A stretch of 64,000 nucleotides of DNA from Afipia sp. Lineage in GTDB: Bacteria > Pseudomonadota > Alphaproteobacteria > Rhizobiales > Xanthobacteraceae. Positions 2,149-53,414 of this stretch are shown piece after piece. The translations under genes and the position numbers were made by a program. Positions within the stretch are counted from its first letter, which is position 1. Each line of letters opens with the position of its first letter. The stretch is from assembly GCA_017474385.1 (NCBI GenBank), contig JAFVHU010000138.1, forward strand, positions 1-64,000. The letters run 5' to 3'. Below the pieces are notes generated by a model. That model made no database searches and had not been told where the DNA came from. It was given only the letters and a program-made list of their open reading frames with translations.

Positions 2149-3000
2149 CTAGCCGCGCTTGAACACCGGCTTGCGCTTCTCCACGAAAGCCTTCACGGCC
2201 TCCTTGTGATCCGCCGTGCCCGCGGATCGCACCATGCGCTCGGCTTCATGATCGAGCGAGGTGAGGAAATCGTTCATCAGCGCTTCGTCGAGATTGTCCT
2301 TGAGGAAGCGCAACGCGGTCGAGGGACCTTCGGCGAGTTTCTTCGCCATGGCGAAGGCTTCCTCGCGCAACTTGACGTCCGGCACCACGCGATTGACGAT
2401 GCCGAGCGATTCGCAACGCTTCGCATCGATCTTCTCGCCGAAGAACATCAGTTCCCGCGCACGCGATGTGCCGACAAGGCGCGTCAGCAGCCATGACATG
2501 CCGTAGTCTCCGCTGAGCCCGATCTTCACATAGGCTGTGGTGACGAAGGCGGATTCCGCTGCAATGCGCAGGTCACACGCCAGCGCCAGCGACAATCCTG
2601 CGCCTGCTGCGGGGCCGGGCAGCGCCGCGATGGTCGGCTTGCGGACGTTGACCAGCGCGCCGGTCAGCGTGCGCTGACGTTCCTGCAAGCGCGCGACTTT
2701 CTGGTCGAATGTCAACTCCGGTGCATTGCTGCTGCCGGGTTTGCCGCCCATGCCTTTGACATCGCCGCCGGCACAGAACGCATCGCCCGCGCCGGTGATG
2801 AGAATGGCGCCGACATTCGGATCTTCGCCGCAGAGCTTGATCATGCGGCGGAGCGCCGGCGTCAGATTGTCGGAAAGCGAGTTGCGCGCCTGCGGGCGAT
2901 TGAGCGTGATGACGGCGACGCGGTCGCGCACTTCGCAGAGAAGTTCTTCGGTGCCGGTGTCGATGACGGTTTCGGAAGATGCAATCGCGGTGGCGGTCAT
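2149..3000 (-). CDS. enoyl-CoA hydratase/isomerase family protein
   Basis: Crotonase-fold protein of 283 residues. It shows the family pattern VAVITLNRPQARNSLS near the N-terminus, the oxyanion-hole segment GAGDAFCAGGDVKGMGG and the second core segment ALPGPAAGAGLSLALACD. Crotonases hydrate 2-enoyl-CoA or carry out related isomerase and hydrolase chemistry; the exact reaction is open. In the second core segment the position that usually carries a catalytic Glu reads GAGLSLALA, so a classical hydratase is not assured and an isomerase-like role is possible. The ATG at 3000 is preferred over an upstream in-frame start at 3042 because the homologous part begins later. It converges with the ABC exporter, ends only 11 bp apart. 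Confidence 0.8.
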   Translation of the reverse strand: MTATAIASSETVIDTGTEELLCEVRDRVAVITLNRPQARNSLSDNLTPALRRMIKLCGEDPNVGAILITGAGDAFCAGGDVKGMGGKPGSSNAPELTFDQKVARLQERQRTLTGALVNVRKPTIAALPGPAAGAGLSLALACDLRIAAESAFVTTAYVKIGLSGDYGMSWLLTRLVGTSRARELMFFGEKIDAKRCESLGIVNRVVPDVKLREEAFAMAKKLAEGPSTALRFLKDNLDEALMNDFLTSLDHEAERMVRSAGTADHKEAVKAFVEKRKPVFKRG

Positions 3001-3198
3001 GGTCGCTATCCCGATAGTTGGTTTCGAAATAGAACTTATCAATTATTGGACCGGGTTTTCCAGCAAAACCTCGCGCAATACAGGCATGTTGGGCGAGGTT
3101 TTTCCGTCATCGGACGGATGTTTCTCCATCTCTGCGTAGCAGCTTTCGTTCATCAATGGTTCAAGCGCAAAGTAGCTAAAAAGCGAACGAGCGGCACC

Positions 3199-10092: not shown

Positions 10093-11646
10093 TCACGCCT
10101 GCGCTGGCGTCTTCTTGACCTTCGCCCAGTACTTGTCGCGCAGATGCCGCTTCACCAGCTTGCCGGTCGGCGTGCGCGGCAGTTCGGCCTCGAAGTCCAC
10201 GCTCTTCGGACACTTGATCGGCGACAGATGCTGGCGGCAGAACAGGATCAGCTCTGCTTCGAGTTCCTTGCCCGCGCGTGACATGTCGTGGGGCTGCACC
10301 ACGGCCTTGACCTCTTCGCCCATTTCCTCGTTCGGAACGCCGAACACCGCGACGTCCGCCACCGCCGGATGCGAGATCATCACGTCCTCGGTTTCCTGCG
10401 GGTAGATATTCACCCCGCCGGAGATGATCATGTAGGCCTTGCGGTCGGTGAGATAGAGAAAGCCGTCGTTGTCGAGGTATCCGACGTCGCCGAGCGTCGA
10501 CCAGCCGCGGTCATTGTAGGCACGCTGCGTCTTGTCGGTGTCGTTGTGATAGGCAAACGCGGGTCCGCCGGCGAAATACACCGTACCGGTTTCACCCACC
10601 GGCAGTTCGTGTCCGTCGTCATCGAGAATCCTGATCTCGCCGACCACCGCGCGGCCAACGGTGCCGCGATGCGCCAGCCAATCCTTCGAGGTGGAGACCG
10701 TGACGCCGTTGCCTTCAGAACCGGCGTAATACTCGATCAGGATCGGTCCCCACCAGTCGATCATCTTCGCCTTGACGTCGGCGGGGCAGGGCGCTGCGGC
10801 GTGCACCGCGCCTTTCAGCGTTGAGGTGTCGTATTTGGTGCGCACGTCGTCCGGCAGCTTGAGCATGCGCACGAACATCGTCGGCACGAGTTGAGACTGC
10901 GTTGCCTTGTGCTTTTCGACCAGCCGCAGGAATTCTTCGGCGTCGAACGATTCCATGATGATCGAGGTGCCGCCGAGCGCGCCGCACATCATGTTGAAGC
11001 GCAGCGGAGCCGCGTGATAAAGCGGCGCGGGCGACAGATACACGCTGGTCTCATTCATGCCGCACATGGTCGCGCACAACAGCTTGAGCAGCGGATTGGG
11101 CACCAGGATGGACGGCTCGGTCAGCGGGCGCTTGATGCCTTTCGGCCGTCCCGTGGTGCCCGACGAATAGAGCATGTCGTAACCGGCGGATTCGTCGGCG
11201 ATCGGTGTTGCGGGCTGCGTTGCCAGCGCGTCGTCCCATGACTTGAAGCCGCCCTGCGCCGCGCCGGTGATGAAAAAATGCGGCGTGCCGGGCGCGTCGC
11301 TGAGCAGCGGCGCGATCGATCCGATGCATTTCGGCGAGGTGATGACGACCTGCGCGCCGCAATCCTTGACGATGTAGGCGATCTCGTCCGCGGTAAGATA
11401 GCGGCTGATGGCGGTGTAATAGAGCCCGCTGCGCTGCGCTGCCCAGCAGATCTCCATGAACGCGATGGTATTTTCCATCAGCAGCGCGATGTGATCGCCC
11501 TGCTTTAATCCGAGTGAACGGAACAGATGCGCGCCCTGGTTGGAGCGGCGGTCGAGATTGCGGTAGGTGATGGCGTCGCCGCTGCTTGCCATCTGGTAGG
11601 CGATCTTGTCGGGTGTCGACTGGGCGTGAATCGATGGATGAGACAT
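10093..11646 (-). CDS. AMP-forming acyl-CoA synthetase
   Basis: Member of the acyl-activating superfamily, 517 residues. It shows the phosphate-binding motif MLYSSGTTGRPKGIKRP, the downstream segment YYAGSEGNG, the hinge region YLTDRKAYMIISGGVNIYPQ and the C-terminal catalytic lysine region RTPTGKLVKRHL. It would form an acyl-adenylate and then the CoA thioester of a carboxylic acid. The A5-type segment YYAGSEG differs from the usual YG-TE and is often seen in synthetases for large or branched acids. The start at 11646 is preceded by AGGGAG. It lies 149 bp downstream of the thiolase, with a terminator between them, so it probably has its own promoter. Confidence 0.85.
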   Translation of the reverse strand: MSHPSIHAQSTPDKIAYQMASSGDAITYRNLDRRSNQGAHLFRSLGLKQGDHIALLMENTIAFMEICWAAQRSGLYYTAISRYLTADEIAYIVKDCGAQVVITSPKCIGSIAPLLSDAPGTPHFFITGAAQGGFKSWDDALATQPATPIADESAGYDMLYSSGTTGRPKGIKRPLTEPSILVPNPLLKLLCATMCGMNETSVYLSPAPLYHAAPLRFNMMCGALGGTSIIMESFDAEEFLRLVEKHKATQSQLVPTMFVRMLKLPDDVRTKYDTSTLKGAVHAAAPCPADVKAKMIDWWGPILIEYYAGSEGNGVTVSTSKDWLAHRGTVGRAVVGEIRILDDDGHELPVGETGTVYFAGGPAFAYHNDTDKTQRAYNDRGWSTLGDVGYLDNDGFLYLTDRKAYMIISGGVNIYPQETEDVMISHPAVADVAVFGVPNEEMGEEVKAVVQPHDMSRAGKELEAELILFCRQHLSPIKCPKSVDFEAELPRTPTGKLVKRHLRDKYWAKVKKTPAQA

Positions 11647-11752
11647 AGAACTCCCTGGGCGTTTCCTCGGTGTTACGATGCTCCGGCGGCTTGTGCCGCT
11701 CGTTGGTTGAGCTTTGAAAAGTCCGGCGCGGCGGTTGATGTATCGCCGGCAC

Positions 11753-11779
11753 AAAAAAGGGCGGGTAATGAACCCGCCC
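11753..11779 (-). terminator. rho-independent terminator of the thiolase gene
   Basis: Read on the minus strand, a GGGCGGGT-TCATT-ACCCGCCC hairpin is followed by six T. It begins 17 bp after the thiolase stop codon. Confidence 0.85.
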
Positions 11780-11795
11780 CTTTCAAAAGCCGTTG

Positions 11796-12968
11796 TTACA
11801 GCCGCTCGATGATGGTGACGTTGGCCATGCCGCCGCCTTCGCACATGGTCTGGAGACCGTAGCGCTTGTTGCGCTGCTTCAGTGCGTTGACCAGCGTCGT
11901 CATCAGCTTGGTGCCGGAGCCGCCGAGCGGATGACCGAGCGCGATGGCGCCGCCATTGACGTTGAGCCGCGACGGATCGGCGCCGGTGTCCTTGAGCCAT
12001 GCGGTCGGTACCGAAGCGAAGGCTTCGTTGACTTCGAACAGATCGATGTCGTCGATCTTCATGCCGGCCTTCTTCAGCGCGCGGTGGGTCGCGGGCAATG
12101 GCGCTTCCAGCATGATGACCGGATCGCCGCCGATCATGGTCATGTGATGGATGCGCGCCAGCGGTGCGATGCCGAGCGCCTTGAGGCCGCGCTCGTTCAC
12201 AACCATGACGCCGGACGCGCCGTCGCAGATCTGGCTGGCGCTGGCGGCAGTGAGCTTGCCGCCTTCCGCAATGGTCTTGACGCCGCGGATGCCCTCGATG
12301 GTCGCATCGAAGCGGATGCCTTCATCGATGCTGTGGATGTCAGAGGAGCCGTCTTCGCGCGTGAACTTGAGCGGAACGATTTCGTCCTTGAAAGCGCCGG
12401 CCTGCGTGGCGGCAATCGCCTTCTGGTGGCTCTGGTAGGAGTACTGGTCGAGATCTTCCTTCGCGAGGCCGTACTTCTCCGCCATCATTTCAGCGCCGGT
12501 GAACTGGCTGAACTGGATATTCGGATACTGCTTCTGGATGTTCGGGCTGTAATAGTTGCCGAAGCCGTTCTTCGCGGCCAGCGTGGCCGGAAGTCCCATC
12601 GGCACGCGGGTCATGCCTTCGACGCCTGCGGCGATCACGATGTCCATCGAGCCGGCCATCACCGCCTGTGCGGCGAAATGCAGTGCCTGCTGCGACGAAC
12701 CGCACTGGCGGTCGACCGAGGTGCCGGGAACGCTTTCCGGAAGCTTCGAGGCCATCACCGCGTTGCGGGCGACGTTGTTCGACTGCTCGCCGGCCTGCAT
12801 GACGCAGCCCATAATAACGTCTTCGATCTGGGCGGGGTCAACACCGGTGCGGTCCACCAGCGAATCCAGCACTGAAGCGGCGAGATCGACCGGATGCCAG
12901 CCTGCGAGGCGGCCTCCCTTGCGTCCCCCTGCGGTGCGGGCGGTGGCGACGATATAGGCTTCAGCCAT
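11796..12968 (-). CDS. acetyl-CoA acyltransferase (thiolase)
   Basis: Thiolase of 390 residues with all three active-site elements: nucleophilic Cys in VDRQCGSSQQAL, the His in GGAIALGHPLGGSG and the second Cys in TMCEGGGM. It would cleave a 3-ketoacyl-CoA with CoA. Start at 12968, preceded by AGGGAG. It is divergent from the TetR gene and from the catabolic genes behind it, and probably supplies the last beta-oxidation step for that island. The typical length and complete motifs argue for an active degradative thiolase; chain-length preference cannot be read. Confidence 0.92.
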   Translation of the reverse strand: MAEAYIVATARTAGGRKGGRLAGWHPVDLAASVLDSLVDRTGVDPAQIEDVIMGCVMQAGEQSNNVARNAVMASKLPESVPGTSVDRQCGSSQQALHFAAQAVMAGSMDIVIAAGVEGMTRVPMGLPATLAAKNGFGNYYSPNIQKQYPNIQFSQFTGAEMMAEKYGLAKEDLDQYSYQSHQKAIAATQAGAFKDEIVPLKFTREDGSSDIHSIDEGIRFDATIEGIRGVKTIAEGGKLTAASASQICDGASGVMVVNERGLKALGIAPLARIHHMTMIGGDPVIMLEAPLPATHRALKKAGMKIDDIDLFEVNEAFASVPTAWLKDTGADPSRLNVNGGAIALGHPLGGSGTKLMTTLVNALKQRNKRYGLQTMCEGGGMANVTIIERL

Positions 12969-13029
12969 GGTGGTGCTCCCTGATGGATTGTTTTCGGTTG
13001 GGCGCGATAAAAGCACGGCGCGAGATTTA

Positions 13030-13043
13030 GTCAATCGGTCAAT
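13030..13043. promoter_or_regulatory. candidate regulator site between thiolase and tetR
   Basis: The direct repeat GTCAATCGGTCAAT (two GTCAAT units, eight bp period) lies in the 138-bp divergent region, 62 bp before the thiolase start. It could be a site for the adjacent TetR-family protein, but most TetR operators are inverted repeats, so support is weak. Confidence 0.3.
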
Positions 13044-13106
13044 TAACTCTTGAGCGCGGCCCGATCATCAGGTTAGCTGGTGGCCCATAATGTCCCGAGA
13101 CCGCGC

Positions 13107-13829
13107 ATGTCACCGACCCTGATCGCCAAAAAGCTGCGCCGGCCGCCATCGAAGCAGGTTCCCGAAAAGGAAGCCGCGCCGATGAATGCGACGGCTGCGA
13201 AATTGCTGGTGGCCGCCGGCGATCTGATGATCGAACGGAACTCGACCGAGGTGTCGCTGAGCGAGATCGCGCAGAAGTCCGGCGTGAACGCGGCACTGGT
13301 GAAGTATCACTTCGGCAACAAGGATGGTCTGCTGCTGGCGCTGCTGGCGCGCGATGCCGCCGCGGAAATGACCAATCTCGCTTTCGTGCTCGATCAGCCG
13401 ATCTCTCCGACGGAGAAGATGCGGCGGCACATCGCCGGCATCATCAATGCCTATTACCGGGTGCCGTATCTGAGCCGGCTGATCCATCTGCTGCTGCATC
13501 AGGGCAGCGAAGCGACCTCAAAAGAAGTCCATCGCTTTTTCATCGACCCGCTGTTCGGCTTTGTGCGCGGGCTGCTTGAGCAGGGCGTCGCCGCGGGTGA
13601 ATTCCGCAAGGTCGATCCGGCGCTGTTCTACATCAGCCTCAACGGCGCCTGCGACAATCTGTTCTACGGCCGCCAGATGAATGCGCGCTTCCTCGGGGCT
13701 GGCGGCATCACCGACGAAGTCAGGCGTCAATACATCCGGCACATGACAACGCTGTTCCTCGGCGGATTGCTGACGGACAAGGCTGCCATGTCGATCGACA
13801 CGGAAGGATCGTCGGCCGGCAAGAGATGA
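13107..13829 (+). CDS. TetR-family transcriptional regulator
   Basis: Protein of 240 residues. A basic N-terminal tail of about 30 residues precedes the TetR helix-turn-helix (about residues 29-72: LLVAAGDLMIERNSTEVSLS, EIAQKSGVNAALVKYHFGNK), followed by an all-helical ligand domain. The ATG at 13107 is chosen; a GTG at 13080 and an ATG at 13182 are alternatives, and the last would remove the basic tail. Divergent from the thiolase and 76 bp upstream of the racemase gene, it probably controls the acyl-CoA island in response to an acyl-CoA. Confidence 0.85.
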   Translation: MSPTLIAKKLRRPPSKQVPEKEAAPMNATAAKLLVAAGDLMIERNSTEVSLSEIAQKSGVNAALVKYHFGNKDGLLLALLARDAAAEMTNLAFVLDQPISPTEKMRRHIAGIINAYYRVPYLSRLIHLLLHQGSEATSKEVHRFFIDPLFGFVRGLLEQGVAAGEFRKVDPALFYISLNGACDNLFYGRQMNARFLGAGGITDEVRRQYIRHMTTLFLGGLLTDKAAMSIDTEGSSAGKR

Positions 13830-13905
13830 TAGAATTCTGTCAGTAAAAAAGCGGCGTTGATATCCGGCGCGCAAACAAGAAGACGTGAGTTCGGGAGAGA
13901 AACAG

Positions 13906-15030
13906 ATGAAGGATCGTTCGGCGGCAACAGGTCCGCTGCGTGGCGTGCGTGTCATCGAGTTCGCGGGCATCGGGCCAGGTCCATTCGCATCGATGCTGTT
14001 GTCCGACATGGGCGCGGATGTCGTGTCGATCGCGCGGCCCGGACAGGGCAAGCGCGATGTGCGGGACTTCGTCAATCGCGGCCGCCGTGTCATCGAACTC
14101 GATCTGAAAAATCCGGCTCACATCGCACAGGCGCTCGATCTGATTGCATCAGCGGATGTGCTGATCGAAGGTTTCCGGCCGCAGGTGATGGAGCGGCTCG
14201 GTCTCGGACCGGACGTGGTGCTCAAGCGCAATCCGAGGCTGGTCTACGGCCGAATGACCGGCTGGGGTCAGGAAGGACCGCTGGCGCAGGCCGCGGGTCA
14301 TGACATCAATTATATCGCCATCACCGGCGCGCTCGATTCATTCCGCGCCGCCAACGGTGAAACCGTCTCACCGCTGAATCTTGTCGGCGATTACGGCGGC
14401 GGCGCGATGTATCTCGTCGTCGGCGTGCTCGCGGGCGTGATCGAGGCGCGAACTTCGGGCAAAGGCCAGGTCGTCGATGCGGCCATGTGCGACGGCGTCT
14501 CCAGCATGCTGACCATGTTCCACAGCATGAAGGCGACCGGACGCTGGACCGATCAGCCGCGCACCAACCTGCTCGACGGCGGCGCGCCGTTCTATCGCAC
14601 CTACGAGTGCAAGGACGGCGGCTTCATGGCGATCGGTGCGCTCGAGCCGCAGTTCTATGCGGAGCTGCGCAAGCTCGCTGGGCTCGATGAGGATTGTTAC
14701 GACGCGCAGATGAACCGCAAGGGCTGGCCGAACCTGCACGAGAAAATGACCGCGCTGTTCAAGAGCAAGACGCGCGACGAATGGGCCGCGATTCTGGAAG
14801 GCTCGGACGCCTGCGCCGCGGCCGTGCGCGGACTGTTCGATGCGCCGACCCATCCGCATCTCGCTGCGCGCCAGACATTCGTCAATGTCGATGGTCACGT
14901 GCAGCCTGCGCCCGCGCCGCGTTTCTCGCGCACACCGTCAAACATTCAGGGATCACCGGCGGTGCCGCCGATCGATGCCGCCGAAATTCTTTCGCAGTGG
15001 TCGCAACCGGCCGCCGCGAAAGCATCCTGA
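13906..15030 (+). CDS. alpha-methylacyl-CoA racemase (CaiB/BaiF family)
   Basis: Class III CoA-transferase-fold protein of 374 residues. It has the signature of the racemase branch: His near residue 132 in AAGHDINYIA and Asp near residue 162 in LNLVGDYGGGAM, thirty residues apart as in the mycobacterial racemase MCR (His126, Asp156). Such enzymes interconvert (R)- and (S)-2-methylacyl-CoA so that the S form can enter beta-oxidation. The start at 13906 is preceded by GGGAGAG. It lies between tetR (76 bp) and the HSD10-like gene (48 bp). A true formyl- or carnitine-CoA transferase would carry an Asp nucleophile elsewhere, so racemase is favoured. Confidence 0.85.
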   Translation: MKDRSAATGPLRGVRVIEFAGIGPGPFASMLLSDMGADVVSIARPGQGKRDVRDFVNRGRRVIELDLKNPAHIAQALDLIASADVLIEGFRPQVMERLGLGPDVVLKRNPRLVYGRMTGWGQEGPLAQAAGHDINYIAITGALDSFRAANGETVSPLNLVGDYGGGAMYLVVGVLAGVIEARTSGKGQVVDAAMCDGVSSMLTMFHSMKATGRWTDQPRTNLLDGGAPFYRTYECKDGGFMAIGALEPQFYAELRKLAGLDEDCYDAQMNRKGWPNLHEKMTALFKSKTRDEWAAILEGSDACAAAVRGLFDAPTHPHLAARQTFVNVDGHVQPAPAPRFSRTPSNIQGSPAVPPIDAAEILSQWSQPAAAKAS

Positions 15031-15078
15031 AGTCATCACGACTTTACAGCATTTCACACCAAAGCAGGAAAACGACTT

Positions 15079-15837
15079 ATGCAGCTCAAGGATGTTTCAG
15101 TACTCATCACCGGCGGCGGTTCAGGTTTGGGCGCGGCAACGGCACGCGCGATGGCCGCAAAGGGCGCGAGGGTCGCCGTCATCGACATGAACAAGGACGG
15201 CGCGGAAGCCGTCGCCAAGGAGATCAAGGGCCTCGCGCTGGTCGGCGACGTGTCGGAAGAGGCACCGGTCAAGGAAGCCATTGCGAAGGCCGAAGCCGCA
15301 CACGGCACCATCCGCGTGCTGGTGAACTGCGCCGGTATCGGCGGCGCGGTGAAGACCGTCGGCAAGAACGGTGCCTATCCGCTCGATCACTTCTCGCGCA
15401 TCATCAAGGTCAACCTGATCGGTTCGTTCAACTGCATCCGTCTCGTTGCCGAGCGCATGCAGACCGCGCCGCCGATCGGCGAGGAGCGTGGCGTCTGCAT
15501 CAACACCGCGAGCGTCGCCGCCTTTGACGGCCAGATCGGCCAGGCGGCGTATTCGGCATCGAAGGGCGGCATCGTCGGTCTGACGCTGCCGGTCGCACGC
15601 GATCTTGCTTCGCTCAACATTCGCGTCATGACCATCGCGCCGGGCCTGTTCCTGACGCCGTTGCTGATGGGCCTGTCGGAAGAAGCCCAGAAGAGCCTTG
15701 GCGCGCAGGTGCCACATCCGGCGCGTCTCGGCGATCCGAGCGAGTACGCCCAGCTTGCTGTCGCCATCGTCGAGAACCCGATGCTGAACGGTGAAACCAT
15801 CCGTCTCGACGGCGCGATCCGCATGGCGCCGCGATAG
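15079..15837 (+). CDS. short-chain dehydrogenase, 3-hydroxyacyl-CoA dehydrogenase type II (HSD17B10-like)
   Basis: SDR enzyme of 252 residues with the NAD-binding [10 protein letters not shown] near residue 12, the NCAG motif, the catalytic Ser in [14 protein letters not shown] and the Tyr-Lys pair in AAYSASKGG. The segment [20 protein letters not shown] and the ending [15 protein letters not shown] are typical of the HSD10 group. That group oxidises 3-hydroxyacyl-CoA and 2-methyl-3-hydroxybutyryl-CoA. Following a racemase gene, it supports a role in methyl-branched acyl-CoA oxidation. Confidence 0.88.
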
Positions 15838-15843
15838 CACGAA

Positions 15844-15956
15844 GCGTCGCCCTTCGAGGCCGCCGCTTTGCGACGGCACGTCAGGGTGACGAACGCGCGT
15901 TATGCGTCATCCTGAGGTACGAGCCGCCTTTTGCGGTGAGCCTCGAAGGGTGATGC
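15844..15956. repeat. intergenic palindromic repeat, family R6
   Basis: Inverted ends GCGTCGCCCTTCGAGGC (15844-15860) and GCCTCGAAGGGTGATGC (15940-15956) enclose two smaller dyads. It separates the HSD10-like gene from the next operon, whose promoter must lie in or just after it. Repeats of this CTTCGAGGC type are common in Bradyrhizobium relatives (recollection, not searched). Confidence 0.75.
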
Positions 15957-16023
15957 AAGCTCTGACCGGCGAGGGGCGGCATAACAAAAATGCCCCCGCC
16001 GTTTTCCTCGGGAGGAAGCTGCG

Positions 16024-17928
16024 ATGAGTGCGAGTTTCGCTGGTTCGGGTCTTGCCGAAAAGAACGTGGCGATAGCGCCGCAGAAGCCGCCGTTTCGCAA
16101 GATCGACTGGTTGCCGCGCGATATCGATGTCGAGCGGCGCGCCGATGGCGTGATCGTCCTGAAATCCCGGTTTCCGCTCGATCCGTATGAGCCGCATATT
16201 CCCGCTTCTGTGGCGAAGTGGGCGGCCGCGCGTCCCGATCATGTCTGGCTGGCGCAGCGCCGCGGCCCCGAGCGGCAATGGCACAAAGTCTCCTACGGGG
16301 AAGCCAAGCGGACCATCGATGCGCTGACGCAGGCGCTGCTCGACATGAAGCTGCCGGCCGGGCGCCCGGTCGCGATCCTGAGCGGCAATTCCATCGAGCA
16401 CGCGCTGATGACACAGGCCGCGATGCAGGCGCGGATTCCGGCGGCACCGGTGTCTCCGGCGTACTCGCTGATGAGCCAGGATCACGCCAAGCTGAAGTAT
16501 CTGTTTGGTCTGGTGAAGCCTGCGGTGGTGATGGTGCAGGACGGGGTGATGTTCGAGAAGGCACTGGCCGCGCTCGATCTCGACGGCATCACGGTGATCC
16601 ATGTCGATCGTGCGCCGGCCAGCATCAAGAGTGTGGCCTATGCCGATCTCGCTGCGACGGCGGTGACCTCCGCGGTCGCGGACTCCATCGCGCAGATCAT
16701 GCCGGACAGCGTCGGCAAGTTGCTGTTTACCTCGGGCTCTACGGGAATGCCCAAGGCGGTCATCAACACGCAGAGGATGATGTGCGCCAACGCCCGCATG
16801 ATGATGCAGGTGCGGCCGCGTCCGGACGACGCGCCGGACGGAATTTATCTCGACTGGATGCCGTGGAATCACACCATGGGCGGCAATGCGTTGTTCAATG
16901 TGGCGCTGACCGAAGGCGGCACGCTGTATATCGACGACGGCCGTCCGGTGCCCGGCCAGTTCGAGGAAACGCTGCGCAACCTGCGCGAGATTTCGCCGAC
17001 CTATTACGCCAACGTCCCGGCCGGTTACGCGGCGCTGGCGGCGGTGATGGAAAAGGACGATGCGCTGTGCCGCTCGTTCTTCAAGAATCTCGGATTGCTC
17101 GCTTACGGCGGCGCGCGGCTGCCGGACGATCTTTACGATCGCTTCCAGACGCTGGCGGTGCGCACCACCGGCGAGCGCTTTGTGTTTTACACCGGCTGGG
17201 GCTCGACCGAGACCGCGCCGACATCCACCGGTACCTATTGGGACACCGAGCGCGTCGGGCTGATCGGGCTGCCGTTCCCCGGCGTCGAGTTGAAGATGGT
17301 GCCGTGCGGAGCGCAGTACGAGTTGCGATTGCGCGGCGTCAACGTGACACCGGGATATTACGGCCAGCCCGAACTGACGCAGAAGGCCTTCGATGAGGAA
17401 GGCTTCTACTGCATCGGCGACGCCGGTGTGTTCGTCGATCCGCAGGATCCTGCGCAGGGCCTGATCTTTTCGGGCCGCGTGGTGGAAGATTTCAAGCTCA
17501 CCACGGGGACATTCGTTCTGGTCGGCTCGCTGCGCACCGATGCGATTGCGGCTGCGTCGCCGGTTGTTCAGGACGCTCTGGTCGCGGGTCAGGATCGTCC
17601 CTTCATCGGACTGCTCGCGTGGCCCAATCTCGATTCCTGCCGCCGGCTGATCGAAGACATGAATGCATCGATGGATACGGTGGTGAACCATCCCAAGGTG
17701 CGCGCGCATTTGCGCGACGGATTGCTGGCGCACAACAAGGCGTGCAGCGGATCGAGCAGCCGCCGCATTGTCCGCGCGATGCTGATGGCCGAGCCGCCGT
17801 CCATCGACGGCAATGAACTCACCGACAAGGGTTACATCAACCAGCGGGCGGGGCTCGAGCGCCGCGCCGCGCTGGTGACGCAGCTTTATGCAGACCAGCC
17901 GGGACCGGACGTCATCGTTCTCGGATAA
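16024..17928 (+). CDS. feruloyl-CoA synthase-like AMP-dependent ligase
   Basis: Acyl-activating enzyme of 634 residues. It shows the phosphate-binding FTSGSTGMPKAVINTQ near residue 238, the segment LDWMPWNHTMGGN, GGTLYIDDGRPVPG, and the family-specific hinge GRVVEDFKLTTGTFVLVG. These are hallmarks of the feruloyl-CoA synthase group, which differs from ordinary acyl-CoA ligases by its longer N-terminus and LTTGT hinge. The substrate may be a hydroxycinnamate or another bulky acid; no enoyl-CoA hydratase/aldolase of the ferulate pathway is next door, so ferulate itself is doubtful. The start follows GGGAGGA. It is the first gene of a tight six-gene set ending with the dehalogenase. Confidence 0.82.
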   Translation: MSASFAGSGLAEKNVAIAPQKPPFRKIDWLPRDIDVERRADGVIVLKSRFPLDPYEPHIPASVAKWAAARPDHVWLAQRRGPERQWHKVSYGEAKRTIDALTQALLDMKLPAGRPVAILSGNSIEHALMTQAAMQARIPAAPVSPAYSLMSQDHAKLKYLFGLVKPAVVMVQDGVMFEKALAALDLDGITVIHVDRAPASIKSVAYADLAATAVTSAVADSIAQIMPDSVGKLLFTSGSTGMPKAVINTQRMMCANARMMMQVRPRPDDAPDGIYLDWMPWNHTMGGNALFNVALTEGGTLYIDDGRPVPGQFEETLRNLREISPTYYANVPAGYAALAAVMEKDDALCRSFFKNLGLLAYGGARLPDDLYDRFQTLAVRTTGERFVFYTGWGSTETAPTSTGTYWDTERVGLIGLPFPGVELKMVPCGAQYELRLRGVNVTPGYYGQPELTQKAFDEEGFYCIGDAGVFVDPQDPAQGLIFSGRVVEDFKLTTGTFVLVGSLRTDAIAAASPVVQDALVAGQDRPFIGLLAWPNLDSCRRLIEDMNASMDTVVNHPKVRAHLRDGLLAHNKACSGSSSRRIVRAMLMAEPPSIDGNELTDKGYINQRAGLERRAALVTQLYADQPGPDVIVLG

Positions 17929-17958
17929 CTTTCACGTTCACAACACGAGTCAAACCAG

Positions 17959-19086
17959 ATGAACTTTGAATTCTCGGACGACCAGAAGCAATTGCGCGAT
18001 CAGGCGCGGCGCTATCTCGCTGAACATTCGCCGCCGAAGGCGGTGCGCGCAGTGCTGGAAGGCAAGGCGCCATACGACAAGGCGCTGTGGAAGGGCCTCG
18101 CCGAGATGGGCTTTCTCGGTGTCGCCATTCCCGAAGAATTCGGCGGCGCGGGAGCTGGGCATCTTGAGCTTTGCGTGATCGCCGAGGAAATGGGCCGCGC
18201 GCTGGCCCCGGTGCCGTTCTCATCGACGATCTATCTCGCCGCGGAAGCCATCATGCTCGCCGGCAGCGATGCACAAAAGGCAAAGTGGCTGCCGAAGATC
18301 GCGTCGGGCGAAGCCATCGGCACGCTGGCGCTGTTCGAGGGCGTCGGCAATCCGTCGCACAAGGCGATCAAGGTCTCAGCCTCGCAGGGCGCGGTCTCCG
18401 GCACCAAGACGCCGGTGGCGGACGGCGCGATTGCGGATTTCGCCATCGTTGCGGCGCGCACAGGTTCGACCGGCCGTGAGACCGACATTGGGCTGTTTAT
18501 CGTCGATCTTTCTGGTGACGGCGTAACGCGCAAGGCGCTCGCCAATCTCGATCAGGCGCATGGCCAGGCCGAGATCACGTTCGATCGCGCCAAGGCGGAG
18601 CCGCTCGGCGCGACCGGCGAAGGCTGGAGCATTCTCACTCGCGTGCTGGATCGTGCGGCTGTGTTGATGGCGTTCGAACAGGTCGGCGGCGCCGACCGCG
18701 CGCTTGAGATGGGCCGCGACTATGCGCTGGATCGGATCGCCTTCGGCCGTCAGATCGGTTCGTTCCAGGCGGTGAAGCACATCCTCGCCGATATGTACGT
18801 CTCGGCGACGCTGGCGCGCTCCAACTGCTACTACGGCGCGTGGGCGCTTTCGACCGACGCGGCGGAATTGCCGGAAGCCGCGGCGACCGCCCGCATCAGT
18901 GCAACGCAGGCGTTCCAGCATTGCTCGAAGAACAACATCCAGGTGCACGGCGGCATGGGCTTCACCTGGGAATTCGACTGCCACCTGTATTACCGGCGCG
19001 CCAACGTGCTCGCGCTGTCGCTCGGAAGCCTGTCGTACTGGGAGAACCAGTTGATCGACCGCCTGCGCTTCCGCAACGCTTCTTAA
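17959..19086 (+). CDS. acyl-CoA dehydrogenase, small-subunit type of a heteromeric pair
   Basis: Acyl-CoA dehydrogenase fold of 375 residues: N-terminal helical domain, middle beta domain and a C-terminal helical domain with RIAFGRQIGSFQAVKHILAD and VHGGMGFTWEFDCHLYYRRA. The usual C-terminal motif with the YEGT-type catalytic glutamate is absent; the chain ends shortly after YWENQLIDRLRF. It is followed after 14 bp by a second dehydrogenase gene. Paired genes of this kind are known to form alpha2beta2 enzymes, for example in steroid side-chain breakdown by actinobacteria, acting on bulky CoA esters. I infer the same here. Confidence 0.85.
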   Translation: MNFEFSDDQKQLRDQARRYLAEHSPPKAVRAVLEGKAPYDKALWKGLAEMGFLGVAIPEEFGGAGAGHLELCVIAEEMGRALAPVPFSSTIYLAAEAIMLAGSDAQKAKWLPKIASGEAIGTLALFEGVGNPSHKAIKVSASQGAVSGTKTPVADGAIADFAIVAARTGSTGRETDIGLFIVDLSGDGVTRKALANLDQAHGQAEITFDRAKAEPLGATGEGWSILTRVLDRAAVLMAFEQVGGADRALEMGRDYALDRIAFGRQIGSFQAVKHILADMYVSATLARSNCYYGAWALSTDAAELPEAAATARISATQAFQHCSKNNIQVHGGMGFTWEFDCHLYYRRANVLALSLGSLSYWENQLIDRLRFRNAS

Positions 19087-19100
19087 GAAGGATCATTCAC

Positions 19101-20345
19101 ATGAATTTCGATGACACCCCGCAGGAAGCAGCATTCCGCGCCGAAGCCCGTGCCTGGATTCAGGTCAACGCGCCGAAGGAACTGGAAGCCGAGCTGTCGC
19201 AGCCGACCGTCGGCCGGATCAAGCTGAAGAACCGCGACATCCTGGAGGAATCCAAGAAGTGGCAGAAGAAGAAGGCCGAAGCCGGCTGGGCCTGTCTGCA
19301 TTGGCCGAAGGAATATGGCGGCCGCGGAGCTTCACCTATTGAGCGCGTGATCTGGCAGCAGGAAGAGGGCTTCTACGGCAAGCTCGAGGGCGTGTTCCTG
19401 ATCGGGCAGGGCATGTGCGGCCCGACGGTGATGGCGTATGGCAGCAACACCGACAAGGCGAAGTATCTGCCGAAGATCGCGTCAGGCGAAAACGTCTGGT
19501 GCCAGTTGTTCTCTGAACCGTCCGCTGGCTCCGATGTCGCCGGTCTGCGCACCCGCGCGGAAAAGAAGGGCGACGACTGGATCATCAACGGCCAGAAGGT
19601 CTGGACCACCGGCGCGCATTTCTCCGATTACGGCATCGTGATCACGCGCACCGATCCGACCCAGCCCAAGCACAAGGGCCTCACCATGTTCTGGCTCGAC
19701 ATGAAGTCGCCGGGCGTCACCGTGAAGCCGATCAAACAGGCCAACGGCCAGTCGGAATTCAACGAGGTGTATTTCGCCGACGTGAAAATTCCGGACTCGC
19801 AGCGGCTCGGCAAGGTCGGCGACGGCTGGAACGTGTCGCTGACCACGCTGATGAACGAGCGCATGTCGATCGGCGCGCGGCAATCGACCGGGTTCCCCGA
19901 ACTGTTTGCGTTCTGCAACGATCTGATGTTGGAAGACGGTCCCGCAATCGAGGACAAGAATGTCCGCTCGAAGCTTGCAAGCTGGGCCGTGAAGGCCAGC
20001 GGCCTCAAGTACACCAGCTATCGTTCGATCTCGGCGTTGTCGCGCGGCGAACGTCCGGGTCCGGAAAATTCCATCGGCAAGCTCGTGGCCGGCACGATGC
20101 TGCAGGACATTGCGATGTTCGCGATGGATCTTCAGGGCGCGTCCGGGGCGCTGACCGATGCGGACAGCCCGTCGGTCGGCGGCCAGTTCCAGTCGATCCT
20201 GCTGCGCTCGCCGTCGGACCGCATAGCAGGTGGTACCGATGAAATCCTGCGCAACATCATCGCTGAACGGGTGCTAGGCTTGCCGGGTGACATCCGCGTC
20301 GACAAGGATGTTCCTTTCAACGCCATTCCGACCAAGGGACGCTGA
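19101..20345 (+). CDS. acyl-CoA dehydrogenase, large-subunit type of a heteromeric pair
   Basis: Acyl-CoA dehydrogenase of 414 residues starting at ATG 19101 after AAGAAGG. It has the FAD/substrate segment CQLFSEPSAGSDVAGLRTRA, WIINGQKVWTTGAHFSDYG and the C-terminal DRIAGGTDEILRNIIAERVL. At the place where single-subunit enzymes carry the catalytic Glu (YEGT), this protein reads AGGT, so the base must come from elsewhere. With the preceding gene it forms a likely alpha2beta2 enzyme. The next gene begins 5 bp later, so translation is probably coupled. Confidence 0.87.
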   Translation: MNFDDTPQEAAFRAEARAWIQVNAPKELEAELSQPTVGRIKLKNRDILEESKKWQKKKAEAGWACLHWPKEYGGRGASPIERVIWQQEEGFYGKLEGVFLIGQGMCGPTVMAYGSNTDKAKYLPKIASGENVWCQLFSEPSAGSDVAGLRTRAEKKGDDWIINGQKVWTTGAHFSDYGIVITRTDPTQPKHKGLTMFWLDMKSPGVTVKPIKQANGQSEFNEVYFADVKIPDSQRLGKVGDGWNVSLTTLMNERMSIGARQSTGFPELFAFCNDLMLEDGPAIEDKNVRSKLASWAVKASGLKYTSYRSISALSRGERPGPENSIGKLVAGTMLQDIAMFAMDLQGASGALTDADSPSVGGQFQSILLRSPSDRIAGGTDEILRNIIAERVLGLPGDIRVDKDVPFNAIPTKGR

Positions 20346-20350
20346 GCGCC

Positions 20351-21043
20351 ATGCTTGCACAACCCGACAGCCGCGACATTGAAGTCGTGGAGAAGCTGCT
20401 TGCCGCGCGGTATTCCTGCCGCGCGTTCAAGCCGGACGCCGTTCCGCGCTCGATTATCGAGCGGGTGCTGAGCGCCGCGCAGAAGACTGCGTCATGGTGC
20501 AACAGCCAGCCGTGGCAGGTGACGATCGTCAGCGGTGATGCGACCCGCGCCTTTGGCGAGGCGCTGTACAAGAATGCGAGCGAGGGAAAGTTCTCGGCGG
20601 ATTTTCCATTCCCTCGTGAGTATCGCGGCGTCTATCTGGATCGCCGCCGCGAAAGCGGCTTTCAGCTTTACAACGCCCTTGGCATCCAGCGCGGTGACAA
20701 GGCCGCCTACAACAAGCAGATGCTAGAAAACTTCCGTTTCTTCGGCGCTCCGCATGTGGCCATTATCACCAGCGATGATGCGCTCGGCGTTTACGGCGCC
20801 GTCGACTGTGGCGGCTATGTGAGCAGCTTTTTGCTCGCCGCGCAGGCAGCAGGTCTTGCGACGATTCCACAGGCGGCGCTGGCAGGCCAGTCCAATGTGG
20901 TGCGCGAGCATCTCGGCCTTCCCGCCGATCGCCGGGTGGTGTGCGGTGTTTCGTTCGGCTACGCCGATGAAGCGCATCTCGCCAACAGCTATCGCACCAA
21001 CCGTGCGACGATCCCGGAGGCTGTTGCGTTTATCGGCGAGTAG
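20351..21043 (+). CDS. nitroreductase-family FMN oxidoreductase
   Basis: Protein of 230 residues with the nitroreductase fold: N-terminal LLAARYSCRAFKPDAV (phosphate/FMN-binding arginines), SAAQKTASWCNSQPWQVTI, and the later SSFLLAAQAAGLATIPQAAL and VVCGVSFGYADE. These enzymes use NAD(P)H and FMN to reduce nitro groups, quinones or activated double bonds. Five base pairs from the dehydrogenase and 21 bp from the NTF2-like gene, it belongs to the same operon; what it reduces there is unknown. Confidence 0.88.
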   Translation: MLAQPDSRDIEVVEKLLAARYSCRAFKPDAVPRSIIERVLSAAQKTASWCNSQPWQVTIVSGDATRAFGEALYKNASEGKFSADFPFPREYRGVYLDRRRESGFQLYNALGIQRGDKAAYNKQMLENFRFFGAPHVAIITSDDALGVYGAVDCGGYVSSFLLAAQAAGLATIPQAALAGQSNVVREHLGLPADRRVVCGVSFGYADEAHLANSYRTNRATIPEAVAFIGE

Positions 21044-21064
21044 ATTCGTCAGAGGGAAACAGCG

Positions 21065-21484
21065 ATGGCGGAGATGAAGGCGACCGACGACGCGGCGGCG
21101 ACGGAGCGTGTCCGCCGCGTGGTCACGCGTTACGCGACAGCCTGGGCGGCTGGAGATCTCCCCACGATCCGCGACTGCTATCACGATCAGTTCACGCTCT
21201 ATTATGGCGGCAACAACCCGCTGTCCGGCGTGCACAAGGGCAAGGCCGCATGCCTCGCGGTGCTGGAAGAATTCCGCAAGCGCACCCGCCGCAAGCTGCT
21301 CAGCGTCGATCACATCATGGCCGGTCCGGAGCGCGGCGCGGTTCTGGCGCGCGAGCAGTTCAGCCATGACAACAAAACCACGGACGTGCAGCGGCTGCTG
21401 GTGTATTCGATTCTCGACGACAGGCTCCATGAATGCTGGGTCTACGATCAGGATCAGGCCTTGATCGATCGGCTCCTGTCCTGA
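21065..21484 (+). CDS. NTF2-like/SnoaL-like protein
   Basis: A 139-residue protein with the pattern of the NTF2-like cone fold: RRVVTRYATAWAAGDLPTIR, CYHDQFTLYYGGNNPLSGVH, AREQFSHDNKTTDVQRLLVY and DDRLHECWVYDQDQALID. Members are ketosteroid-isomerase-like enzymes, dehydratases, hydrolases or ligand binders, so no reaction can be named. The ATG follows GAGGGAAA. It lies 10 bp upstream of the haloalkane dehalogenase, with which it is probably co-translated. Confidence 0.75.
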   Translation: MAEMKATDDAAATERVRRVVTRYATAWAAGDLPTIRDCYHDQFTLYYGGNNPLSGVHKGKAACLAVLEEFRKRTRRKLLSVDHIMAGPERGAVLAREQFSHDNKTTDVQRLLVYSILDDRLHECWVYDQDQALIDRLLS

Positions 21485-21494
21485 GGACAACGCG

Positions 21495-22376
21495 ATGACC
21501 GAACAGCCGCTTGCGAAAAAGACCGTTGAGGTGCTCGGCCGTCGCATGGCCTATCACGAGCGCGGCGAGGGCGCGCCGATCCTGTTCCTGCACGGCAATC
21601 CCACCTCGTCCTATCTCTGGCGCGATGTCATTCCCGAGCTTGAAGGACAGGGTCGCCTGATCGCGCCGGATCTGATCGGCATGGGTGATTCCGGCAAGCT
21701 GCCCGACGTGAAGCCGGATACCTATCGCTTCACCACGCATCGCGATCATCTCTGGGCCTTCATCGATACTGTGATCGGCCCGAGCGAAAAAGTTTTGCTG
21801 GTGATTCACGACTGGGGTTCGGCGCTCGGTTTCGACTGGGCCAACCAGCATCGCGATCGCGTGCGCGGCATCGCCTACATGGAAGGCATCGTGCGGCCCG
21901 TTGCCGGATGGGACGAGTGGAGCGAGGCGGCGACGCCGGTGTTCCAGGGGTTCCGCTCCGACAAGGGCGAGCAGATGATCCTCGACCGCAACCTGTTCAT
22001 CGAGCGCGTGCTGCCGGGCTCGGTGCTGCGCAAGCTGTCAGACGCCGAGATGGCCGAGTATCGCAAACCGTTTCTCAACCGCGAGGATCGCTGGCCGACG
22101 CTGACCTGGCCGCGCCAGATTCCGATTGGCGGCGAGCCCGCCGATGTGGCCGCCATTGTCGATGCTTACGCCAAATGGATGGCGCAGAACGATGTACCGA
22201 AGCTGTTTGTCAATGCTGAACCCGGCGCGATCCTGATCGGCAAGGTGCGTGAGTTCTGCCGCGGCTGGAAGAACCAGACCGAGGTAACGGTCCCCGGTTC
22301 GCATTTCATCCAGGAAGATTCCGGGCCGGCCATCGGCCGCGCCATCGCGGGCTGGATCAAGGACAAGCGCGTTTAG
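21495..22376 (+). CDS. haloalkane dehalogenase (subfamily II type)
   Basis: Alpha/beta-hydrolase of 293 residues with a complete haloalkane dehalogenase set: oxyanion/halide Asn35 in HGNPTSSYLWR, nucleophile Asp106 followed by halide-binding Trp107 in VIHDWGSALG, catalytic acid Glu130 in YMEGIVRP, and base His270 in GSHFIQEDSGP. Asp106 and Glu130 fall at the same numbers as in the Rhodococcus enzyme DhaA, and the overall pattern resembles DbjA of Bradyrhizobium. It would hydrolyse a carbon-halogen bond to an alcohol and halide. It is the last gene of the acyl-CoA operon, an unusual setting. An epoxide hydrolase is unlikely given Trp107 and Glu130. Confidence 0.9.
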   Translation: MTEQPLAKKTVEVLGRRMAYHERGEGAPILFLHGNPTSSYLWRDVIPELEGQGRLIAPDLIGMGDSGKLPDVKPDTYRFTTHRDHLWAFIDTVIGPSEKVLLVIHDWGSALGFDWANQHRDRVRGIAYMEGIVRPVAGWDEWSEAATPVFQGFRSDKGEQMILDRNLFIERVLPGSVLRKLSDAEMAEYRKPFLNREDRWPTLTWPRQIPIGGEPADVAAIVDAYAKWMAQNDVPKLFVNAEPGAILIGKVREFCRGWKNQTEVTVPGSHFIQEDSGPAIGRAIAGWIKDKRV

Positions 22377-28548: not shown

Positions 28549-28980
28549 TCAGTTCTTCTTCCGGGCGATCTTGAAGGTTGCGTTGGCCCGCGCGCAAGGT
28601 TCGCCGTCGGCGGTGACCAGGCATTGTGCGAAGCAGATTGACCCGCCGATTTTCATGAAGTTGGTGTCTATCTCAAGCCACTGTCCGATATTCGCTGAAC
28701 CGAGATAGTCGACCGAGAGGTTGATCGTGACCAGCCCGAGAAGATTGCCGGCCTTGAGACTGCAACTCAGTCCCATTGCATTATCGGCAAGCGCCGCGAT
28801 CAGCCCGCCATGAATCAGCCCGCGCGAATTGGTGTGTGCCTCAGCGAGGCGCAATCCAAGAATGTAGGCCTCCGGCGTCGCCTTGAAATAGATCGGCTCC
28901 CAGGGCTCGGTGAGCGGACTGCGCCGCGGATGGCGCGCGAAGCCTGCTGGAACATCGGCAAGAGTTTCGGTCGTTCCCAT
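28549..28980 (-). CDS. PaaI-family hotdog-fold thioesterase
   Basis: Protein of 143 residues with the hotdog thioesterase motif SRGLIHGGLIAALADNAMGL, where the HGG and the Asp are the usual active-site elements, and the strand SVDYLGSANIGQWLEI. Such enzymes hydrolyse acyl- or phenylacetyl-type CoA esters, often recycling CoA from dead-end products. It ends 6 bp from the convergent LysR gene. Confidence 0.82.
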   Translation of the reverse strand: MGTTETLADVPAGFARHPRRSPLTEPWEPIYFKATPEAYILGLRLAEAHTNSRGLIHGGLIAALADNAMGLSCSLKAGNLLGLVTINLSVDYLGSANIGQWLEIDTNFMKIGGSICFAQCLVTADGEPCARANATFKIARKKN

Positions 28981-29143
28981 GTTTCTCTTTCAAATGCTGC
29001 GTGGTGCGGTTGCCTGCATCATAAAGCGGGCCTCGCGCGCGATCATTCGAAATCAAGTTTGAAACACGGCATCGCCGCATGTTTGAAACAGCGGCGGCGT
29101 CATCGTTTCTTCATCGCCCCGCAGGAGAGAGGCGAGGGAGGTG

Positions 29144-30319
<1,176 letters not shown>

Positions 30320-45930: not shown

Positions 45931-46812
45931 CTAGCGGATTCCCTCAGCGACACGTGCAACTTTTCCCCCTGCTGATTTGATTTTTTTGATGCTTGTCGTT
46001 TCTTTGTTTTGCGGGCCGCGTCCGACACTGCCGGTCATCGCGATCTCGATATTTCTGACCATCGCGACCAGGCGAGGGCCAATATCGTTCTTTAATAGAA
46101 CTTCGCTGAATTTGAAAGCAGGCGCGCCGCAGTTGAAGGCATAGGGGCCGGTTCCGTCATTCAGCTTGAGGGCAACACCGACTGCGTGGATGTCGCTGTG
46201 CCATTCTCCGGCGGACATGGCGAAGCCGTGCTTCGCAACACATTCGCCGGCGCGCTCGATGCCTTCGCGTATCTTCGGCCAGTTGGCGCCGCTATGCTCC
46301 TTGATCTCGTGCAGCAGGTTGGCGCGCTCATCCTCCGGCAGCGCCCACAGATAGGCGCGGCCCATCGCCGTCGTCGCGATCGGGACCTTGGAGCCGACAT
46401 CGAGCAGCACGCCGACAGTCAATTCACTGCGGCTCTGTCCGAAGTAGATCATGCTGAGACGATCGCGCGCGCCGATCGCAACCGCGCCGCCGGTCTCGCG
46501 CATCAACTGGTCGCGATAAGGATCAGACACATGACGCACGCCCATGTTGGCGAGTGCGGAATATCCGAGCGCCATCGCCGCGGGCGCAAGCTGATATTTT
46601 TCGAAGCGCGGAACTGGCGTCAGATAACCGAGTTTCGTCAGCGTGTAGGTGAGCCGCGAAATTGTCGGCTTCGGCAAATTGGTTCGCGCTGCGATTTCCT
46701 GATTTCCCAGAAGACCATCGCTGGGACGGAATGCGCGCAATACATCGAGCCCCCGCGACAACGCGATAACAAAACTGCGATCCGTCGCAGATTTCTTTGG
46801 TGGGCGTTTCAT
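45931..46812 (-). CDS. pimR: IclR-family regulator, probable regulator of the pim operon
   Basis: Protein of 293 residues: an N-terminal winged helix (about 15-75, ALSRGLDVLRAFRPSDGLLG, NLPKPTISRLTYTLTKLGYL) and an IclR effector domain (about 90-260, VAIGARDRLSMIYFGQSRSE, IATTAMGRAYLWALPEDERA). A lysine-rich tail follows (NKETTSIKKIKSAGGKVAR). IclR proteins bind organic acids. Divergent from the pimFABCD genes with an IclR-like palindrome in the 128-bp gap, it matches the place of the IclR gene beside the Rhodopseudomonas pim operon. Confidence 0.85.
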   Translation of the reverse strand: MKRPPKKSATDRSFVIALSRGLDVLRAFRPSDGLLGNQEIAARTNLPKPTISRLTYTLTKLGYLTPVPRFEKYQLAPAAMALGYSALANMGVRHVSDPYRDQLMRETGGAVAIGARDRLSMIYFGQSRSELTVGVLLDVGSKVPIATTAMGRAYLWALPEDERANLLHEIKEHSGANWPKIREGIERAGECVAKHGFAMSAGEWHSDIHAVGVALKLNDGTGPYAFNCGAPAFKFSEVLLKNDIGPRLVAMVRNIEIAMTGSVGRGPQNKETTSIKKIKSAGGKVARVAEGIR

Positions 46813-46880
46813 TCGTCAAACCGCATACGTGGTCTTCGTTGACAAAGGACGTGCTTCAAAATATCCCTCCGTGTCAAGAT

Positions 46881-46897
46881 GTGGAATTTAATTCCGC
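46881..46897. promoter_or_regulatory. IclR-type palindrome upstream of pimF
   Basis: GTGGAATTTAATTCCGC contains GGAAT-TTA-ATTCC, close to the usual IclR consensus TGGAAAT-N-ATTTCCA. It lies 44 bp before the pimF GTG and 69 bp before pimR, so it could control both. Confidence 0.6.
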
Positions 46898-46940
46898 ACT
46901 GCGAAATAGTCAAAAAAACAAGCGCTACAAGGAGAGTTGT

Positions 46941-49028
<2,088 letters not shown>

Positions 49029-49031
49029 TCC

Positions 49032-51895: not shown

Positions 51896-51906
51896 GCATC
51901 GCACGG

Positions 51907-51942
51907 CCGGCCCGTTCTCTCTGTTCAGAGAGGACGGGCCGG
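51907..51942 (+). other. strong hairpin between pimB and pimC
   Basis: CCGGCCCGT pairs with ACGGGCCGG, continued inside by CTCTCT / AGAGAG. There is no T tract after it, so it is more likely an mRNA-stabilising or processing hairpin, or a weak attenuator, than a full terminator. The rest of the 186-bp gap has the AAGGAGGA site of pimC. Confidence 0.7.
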
Positions 51943-52081
51943 AAAGCGTCCGGACGTAAGGGCACTCGAATCTTTTGACTGCCGAATTGCCTCCCGCCTG
52001 TGCCGGTCTACAATCACCGGACAGAACAAGAGGCCGAAATCCCGGACTGTTATTTCCAGTCAGACTCCAAGGAGGACCCCC

Positions 52082-53269: not shown

Positions 53270-53277
53270 CGGCTGAC

Positions 53278-53370
53278 ATTCCGGGTCGCGCGAAAGCGCG
53301 AACCCGGAATCTCCATCAAGACTTGCTGTCTGGGTTCCGGGTCTGCGCGTAGCGCGCATCCCGGAATGAC
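53278..53370. repeat. intergenic palindromic repeat, family R4
   Basis: ATTCCGGGTCGCGCGAAAGC with inverse GCGCGAACCCGGAAT forms one hairpin. GGGTTCCGGGTCTGCGCGTA with GCGCATCCCGGAATGAC forms a second. It lies inside the pim operon between pimC and pimD, which is unusual since most repeats here fall between operons. Confidence 0.8.
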
Positions 53371-53414
53371 GGGCCTGGTCATCAAGCGAATGCTTCGAGC
53401 ACAGGGATTGTAAA

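Follow-up and report, generated by a model that had tools for sequence, protein, structure and literature searches.

A conserved operon of the Bradyrhizobium group in Afipia sp., with a constant nitroreductase-family gene and a neighbouring haloalkane dehalogenase gene

The DNA analysed was a 64,000-nt stretch of an Afipia sp. contig (JAFVHU010000138.1; hereafter the window), part of a 4.48 Mb draft genome that was 84% complete. A gene island at 10093-22376 of the window was a variant of an operon widespread in the soil bacteria Bradyrhizobium, Rhodopseudomonas, Tardiphaga and Afipia, and a gene for a nitroreductase-family flavoprotein (ntr) was a constant partner gene of this operon. With a probability of about 0.6, the operon would encode a beta-oxidation cassette under local repression, with a bulky carboxylic acid, perhaps one that bears a ring, as its substrate. 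The haloalkane dehalogenase gene (dhaA) that ends the island was a neighbour that came close, probably through the loss of genes between.

Conservation of the operon and its nitroreductase gene

The island began on the minus strand with genes for a FadD4-like acyl-CoA ligase and a thiolase (thl), and continued on the plus strand with genes for a TetR-family regulator (tetR), an alpha-methylacyl-CoA racemase (AMACR) homologue (caiB) and an HSD10-type short-chain dehydrogenase/reductase (SDR; sdr). Six tightly spaced genes followed, for a feruloyl-CoA-synthase-like ligase (lig), two acyl-CoA dehydrogenases of the small-subunit (acdS) and large-subunit (acdL) types, ntr, an NTF2-like protein (ntf2) and dhaA. 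The order, the strands and the gaps within the six-gene run (30, 14, 5, 21 and 10 bp), as the initial annotation had given them, agreed with the list of open reading frames (ORF), and the family names were backed by Pfam, NCBIfam and PDB sequence searches.

Two sets of loci, which shared several genomes, were compared. The relatives' set comprised 20 loci retrieved by searching with the island proteins (17 complete from thiolase to nitroreductase), and the named set comprised the best 80 of 567 nitroreductase matches (55 complete loci). Carriers named in the nitroreductase alignment, among these best 80 of 567, included Afipia (A. birgiae, 97%), Tardiphaga, Rhodopseudomonas and the legume symbiont genus Bradyrhizobium. 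The complete loci of both sets had a common order: thl, then divergently tetR, sdr, acdS, one or more acdL and ntr, with caiB optional before sdr, and an enoyl-CoA hydratase gene (ech) and lig optional behind it. Since this order was kept in 17 of the 20 relatives' and 55 of the 80 named loci, the island was more than a chance grouping. The commonest form (thl, tetR, sdr, ech, lig, acdS, acdL, acdL, ntr) occurred in 42 of the 55 complete named loci, and a tetR match was missing from one of the 55. Complete relatives' loci carried caiB (16/17), ech (8/17) and lig (14/17), and complete named loci carried them in 5, 45 and 51 cases, respectively. The FadD4-like ligase gene was present in all 16 complete relatives' loci with room for it, and in three of six such named loci. 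No description of the island was found in the literature searched, which covered few subscription papers and included PMC5343134, PMC13289028 and PMC13101464; within that coverage, the operon core was apparently undescribed.

Some loci departed in detail. Bradyrhizobium viridifuturi (L121) had tandem matches, two to tetR and four to acdL. A record titled Frankia sp. RB7 (L140) held a Bradyrhizobium-type operon at Bradyrhizobium-like identities, and was probably mislabelled or contaminated. Palindromic repeats of about 90-130 bp (by eye) lay in differing operon gaps among Afipia genomes (15838-16023 in the window; L037-L051), with the gene order intact.

Because the nitroreductase had served as query for the named set, every locus in that set contained ntr by construction; its presence was testable only in the loci fetched with the ligase and in 296 genomes sampled from the window's family (acdL matches at E up to 1e-120, ntr matches at E up to 1e-70). 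In that sample acdL, the marker gene of the operon, occurred in 99 genomes and ntr in 101; both occurred in 98, acdL alone in one, ntr alone in three and neither in 194 (phi = 0.97). Of 95 pairs checked, 94 had acdL and ntr starts within 3 kb of each other. In the 15 loci that the ligase retrieved from relatives, ntr always lay behind acdL, and five further genomes had acdS-acdL-ntr without a close ligase (L061-L065, of which L062 and L064 end at contig ends). Against a fixed tie, one genome (G035; L066) had ntr and tetR without acdS-acdL, and ntr homologues of other families sat in other contexts: seven loci outside the family (L167-L173) had no clear island partners by tblastn, with only matches of about 26-31% identity to the racemase, SDR, FadD4 or LysR queries.

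The ntr gene (20351-21043, plus strand), the last core gene of the operon, encoded a PF00881 protein (104 bits, cut-off 23.5) with NfnB (2wzv, E = 3e-39) and 3gr3 as nearest solved relatives. Iodotyrosine deiodinases matched it only at E = 0.001 or weaker, and a deiodinase role was rejected, as was a BluB role (42 of 150 bits). Tentatively, and at less than even odds, the pathway may depend on the ntr product, either for one of its steps or as a redox partner; an ene-reductase for a conjugated intermediate, in the ring or the side chain, would be one example. The beta-oxidation route, with its two-subunit dehydrogenase, would then be an undescribed one common to the Bradyrhizobium group. The operon offers a natural and genetically tractable context for finding the substrate of a nitroreductase-family protein. 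The window was 92% identical to A. birgiae over 20500-21000, in the ntr region, and 77-82% identical to the other close genomes compared, several of which were 90-93% identical over the preceding 500 bases; local recombination is possible there.

Encoded enzymes, regulation and proposed pathway

The paired dehydrogenase genes were acdS (17959-19086, plus strand; PimD/IpdE2-like by Pfam, NCBIfam and PDB matches) and acdL (19101-20345, plus strand; PimC/FadE26-like), the ORF of the latter opening at 18840 and its start being placed at 19101 by homology. The nearest solved structures of the acdL product were the Tcur3483 and FadE26 large subunits (E = 1e-48 to 9e-45), and its Glu253, in LMNERMSIGA, aligned with the Glu of FadE26 LNHER; acdS read LDRAAVLMAF at 230 (compared by eye). 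The acdS gene stood directly 5' of acdL throughout the two overlapping sets (72 complete loci). Identity was 33% between acdL and PimC and 31% between acdS and PimD of the same window, and the cut-offs for PimC (acdL, 233.5 of 623.85 bits), PimD (acdS, 169.4 of 652.7 bits) and IpdE2 (acdS, 189 of 450 bits) were missed. By gene pairing and the Glu, acdS-acdL fits a heteromeric (two-subunit) acyl-CoA dehydrogenase, which may form an alpha2beta2 complex.

The racemase gene caiB (13885-15030, plus strand) was much closer to AMACR structures (8rmw and 1x74, E about 2e-117) than to the best CoA-transferase (E = 4e-32) in the PDB sequence search, and NCBIfam CoA-transferase cut-offs were not reached. 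Its GHDINY and NLVGD motifs, which hold the catalytic His and Asp of AMACR, aligned with that enzyme, and by closeness and motifs the product is predicted to be of the alpha-methylacyl-CoA racemase type. The sdr gene (15079-15837, plus strand) had HSD10-type 3-hydroxyacyl-CoA dehydrogenases as nearest solved structures (3tl3, 6ujk [Rv1144] and 1u7t; E = 6e-80 to 2e-87). PDB matches upheld the initial description of an acyl-CoA catabolic island with this racemase, this SDR and paired dehydrogenases. The methyl-branched substrate proposed with it leaned on the racemase, whose gene was in nearly all complete relatives' loci but in few complete named ones, so that most operon carriers lacked caiB at that place. 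The racemase was mostly an Afipia feature, with one further, incomplete locus outside that genus (L090).

The lig gene (16024-17928, plus strand; NF009232, 1038 bits, cut-off 777) matched only the generic subfamily PRK12582, which has a feruloyl link, and ferulate activation itself is predicted at most. The FadD4-like ligase gene (10093-11646, minus strand) scored 634 bits for NF038341, under its cut-off of 850; its ORF (10093-12000) ran into the thiolase gene and its start was set at 11646 by homology. This second ligase reached 217 of 750 bits for CasG, and CasG was not among the best 25 matches of lig. The thiolase (11796-12968, minus strand) was of the acetyl-CoA C-acyltransferase type (NF005077, 768 bits, cut-off 590).

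In many relatives an ech of about 269 codons lay between sdr and lig. In this island the corresponding gap (15838-16023, plus strand, 186 bp) held a palindromic repeat and a hairpin. The initial observation that the island lacks a hydratase was true of this genome and did not extend to most complete relatives outside Afipia, which carried ech. A search of the rest of the assembly gave no close orthologue, the best match having 39% identity. The hydratase initially suggested to serve the island (2149-3000; gene at 2149-3042) had 37% identity to the island-type enzyme (match at 2158-2946) and was the second-best match in the genome, and it was rejected as the island's special hydratase. PimF (46797-49028) likewise holds hydratase and dehydrogenase domains. 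The hairpin (15950-16024, plus strand), directly before the lig ribosome-binding region, had similar counterparts in four loci likewise without a hydratase (L039, L043, L044 and L046), and is a possible attenuator.

Regulation looks local, through a candidate operator between thl and tetR (13080-13829, plus strand; PF14514 and PF00440 above cut-off). The operator-like site TTAGTCAATCGnTCAATTAA (13027-13046, no strand assigned) contains the 8-mer TTAGTCAA, which was present in 64 of 68 thl-tetR intergenic regions. A search allowing up to three mismatches gave a single match in the window, against 0.01 expected, and a single match in the assembled genome, as many as its backwards control; no similar site was found before lig or dhaA. 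A terminator-like hairpin with a T-run lay 3' of the thiolase gene (11753-11779, minus strand; RNA fold), so the FadD4-like ligase gene is probably not simply co-transcribed with thl and probably forms its own transcript. A consensus promoter and terminator scan performed no better than on shuffled sequence, and this hairpin was not among its listings.

In the preferred reading, a carboxylic acid would be activated by the feruloyl-CoA-synthase-like ligase, perhaps by the FadD4-like ligase too, and the acyl-CoA would be desaturated by the two-subunit dehydrogenase. An enoyl-CoA hydratase, operon-encoded in many relatives and supplied from elsewhere in this genome, would hydrate the product; the HSD10-type enzyme would then oxidise it, and the thiolase would cleave it, closing one round of beta-oxidation. 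TetR would repress at the single thl-tetR site, with release probably by an acyl-CoA intermediate, and the nitroreductase-family flavoprotein would belong to the pathway in some redox role. The Afipia racemase would pass both epimers of a 2-methyl acid, and together with the extra ligase it would widen the intake; ntf2 and dhaA, which would have joined the 3' end in part of Afipia, would be dispensable for the core.

The most likely substrate class, on weak grounds, is that of side-chain acids from plants or soil that are bulky and perhaps carry a ring. Among 21 loci with relatives of the ligase (36-57% identity), a PRK08150-type hydratase occurred in nine, an SDR of at least 53% identity in five, a 4HBT thioesterase in four and pobA nearby in four; because of these neighbourhoods and the 4HBT and PobA genes of the window, a ring-bearing side-chain acid leads, weakly. 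Several points weighed against the preferred reading. Shared ancestry inflates the co-occurrence of acdL and ntr, each of which occurred in 12 of 47 sampled genera. Most of the 21 ligase-relative loci were without pobA, thioesterase or SDR (some end at contig ends), and the 4HBT and pobA genes of the window may be mere chromosomal neighbours. The hydratase had no close orthologue in an assembly that was 84% complete. lig was missing from three of the 17 complete relatives' and four of the 55 named loci that kept the remaining genes, so it may not be the sole activating enzyme. What the comparison showed was which genes are present, in which order and how often together, and that the operator-like site is conserved; the catalytic steps, complex formation, regulation and substrate are all inferred.

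An aryl-propanoid route is a narrower form of the preferred reading, with overlapping odds, and was considered unlikely as a specific proposal, if the strongest of the alternatives. A phenylpropanoate would be shortened to an aroyl-CoA, the acid freed by the 4HBT thioesterase (28549-28980) and 4-hydroxybenzoate hydroxylated by PobA (29144-30313). The ligase family is consistent with such a route, as is the location of the thioesterase and PobA (above cut-off) genes 6-7 kb downstream of the island (28549-30313), but these lie on the opposite (minus) strand with other genes between. In Afipia loci reaching that far pobA was about 2-8 kb from ntr, and related ligase genes lay within about 5 kb of pobA in four of the 21 loci (G041, G035, G003 and G033), but in G003 and G033 pobA adjoined another ligase-hydratase pair, maybe its real partner, and the other 17 loci had no pobA. 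Moreover, such a substrate would not need the racemase.

Somewhat less probable again was general beta-oxidation of branched or medium-chain fatty acids or isoprenoids, a housekeeping function of the clade with no special ring-bearing substrate. In its favour, acdL was present in a third of the family sample (99/296), and so is not a rare xenobiotic trait, and 2-methyl-acyl-CoA metabolism is known to involve racemases and HSD10-type enzymes; a dedicated single local operator-like site and a PimCD/FadE26-type dehydrogenase pair, though, would be unusual for that function.

The dehalogenase and NTF2-like genes

The accessory gene dhaA (21495-22376, plus strand) belongs by cut-off (NF002938, 420 bits, cut-off 241) and motif to the HLD-II haloalkane dehalogenase family, and dehalogenation is predicted. 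Motif positions were N35, D106, W107, E130 and H270; an Asp nucleophile, Glu, His and an Asn/Trp halide pair make up the haloalkane dehalogenase motif, which was complete in 15 of 16 sequences compared. The accessory gene ntf2 (21065-21484, plus strand; SnoaL/NTF2-like, PF12680) was found in six of 61 genomes, each time between ntr and dhaA, and the model predicted for its protein was poor (mean pLDDT 52).

Within the family sample, dhaA of at least 72% identity occurred in 22 genomes, all island carriers (22 of the 99 acdL genomes); eleven more genomes, with copies of 55-63% above the cut-off, were left out of this count. That all 22 carried the island was the best fact for the link between dehalogenase and pathway made initially, and clade membership explains it equally well. 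The gene was adjacent to the operon in 11 of the 22, 3.2-6.2 kb downstream on the same strand in nine of other genera (G033, G474, G484, G505, G543, G559, G565, G587 and G600), elsewhere in one (G028) and at a contig end in one (G573). In the window and its 20 island relatives, dhaA lay directly behind ntr or ntf2 in 11 of 21 genomes (interrupted in one, A. birgiae) and was not at the operon-adjacent site in ten; it was missing from that site in nine of 20 Afipia island genomes. An opposite-strand hydratase gene separated operon and dhaA in the five separated loci inspected, and in Bradyrhizobium L132, inspected in full, the ntr-dhaA stretch held genes for such a hydratase and for an ion channel, both on the opposite strand, as well as genes for a DUF3307 protein and a cyclic-nucleotide-binding protein. 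Pairwise identities of dhaA tracked those of ntr (r = 0.86) and acdL (r = 0.88) in 16 sequences, of which that of A. birgiae was a piece, and thus fit vertical descent as a neighbour brought nearer by loss of intervening genes.

A pathway dedicated to a branched acid with halogen or nitro substituents, which the dehalogenase and the nitroreductase, respectively, would remove, was therefore rejected as highly improbable: the close packing of ntr, ntf2 and dhaA in the window, the complete motifs and the confinement of dhaA to island carriers favour it, but dhaA was not an operon member in other genera, most ntr carriers lacked such a dhaA, and membership of the nitroreductase family does not by itself point to a nitro substrate. 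The initial annotation had named the absence of dhaA and ntr from the operon in close relatives as evidence against its proposal; on that test ntr was linked to the operon, with both genes in 98 of the 102 genomes that had ntr or acdL, and dhaA was not. The gene is a clear case of a pathway-looking enzyme gene that is a mere neighbour.

Comparison with known systems

The dhaA product resembled the HLD-II enzymes LinB and Rv2579 in sequence and catalytic motif positions, and no protein difference was seen; among the genomes examined, dhaA directly adjoined a beta-oxidation operon only in Afipia. With the PRK12582 ligase cassettes found at other loci within the same taxonomic order (with PRK08150 hydratase, HSD10-type SDR and 4HBT thioesterase) the island shared the ligase family, the SDR (53-62% in five loci) and the beta-oxidation logic, but with these queries the cassettes had no close racemase (one 31% match, L052) and no close acdS/acdL pair (one 33% acdL-like match, L188), and the island-type nitroreductase and TetR occurred among them only in L066. 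The actinobacterial heteromeric dehydrogenases FadE26 and Tcur3481/Tcur3483, which have a steroid side-chain role, provided the nearest solved large-subunit structures, with the Glu aligned; the similarity was remote, and the FadD4-like ligase of the island missed the CasG cut-off.

The window also carried a pimFABCD operon for dicarboxylate beta-oxidation (46797-54554, plus strand; PimA, PimC and PimD above curated cut-offs). Upstream of it, at about 37.7-45.7 kb, lay Liv-type ABC transporter genes. The island resembled pimFABCD in having a ligase, a thiolase and a two-subunit dehydrogenase. It differed in that acdL and acdS were far under the PimC and PimD cut-offs, and in having a ligase of another family, a separate HSD10-type SDR, a nitroreductase and a TetR regulator.

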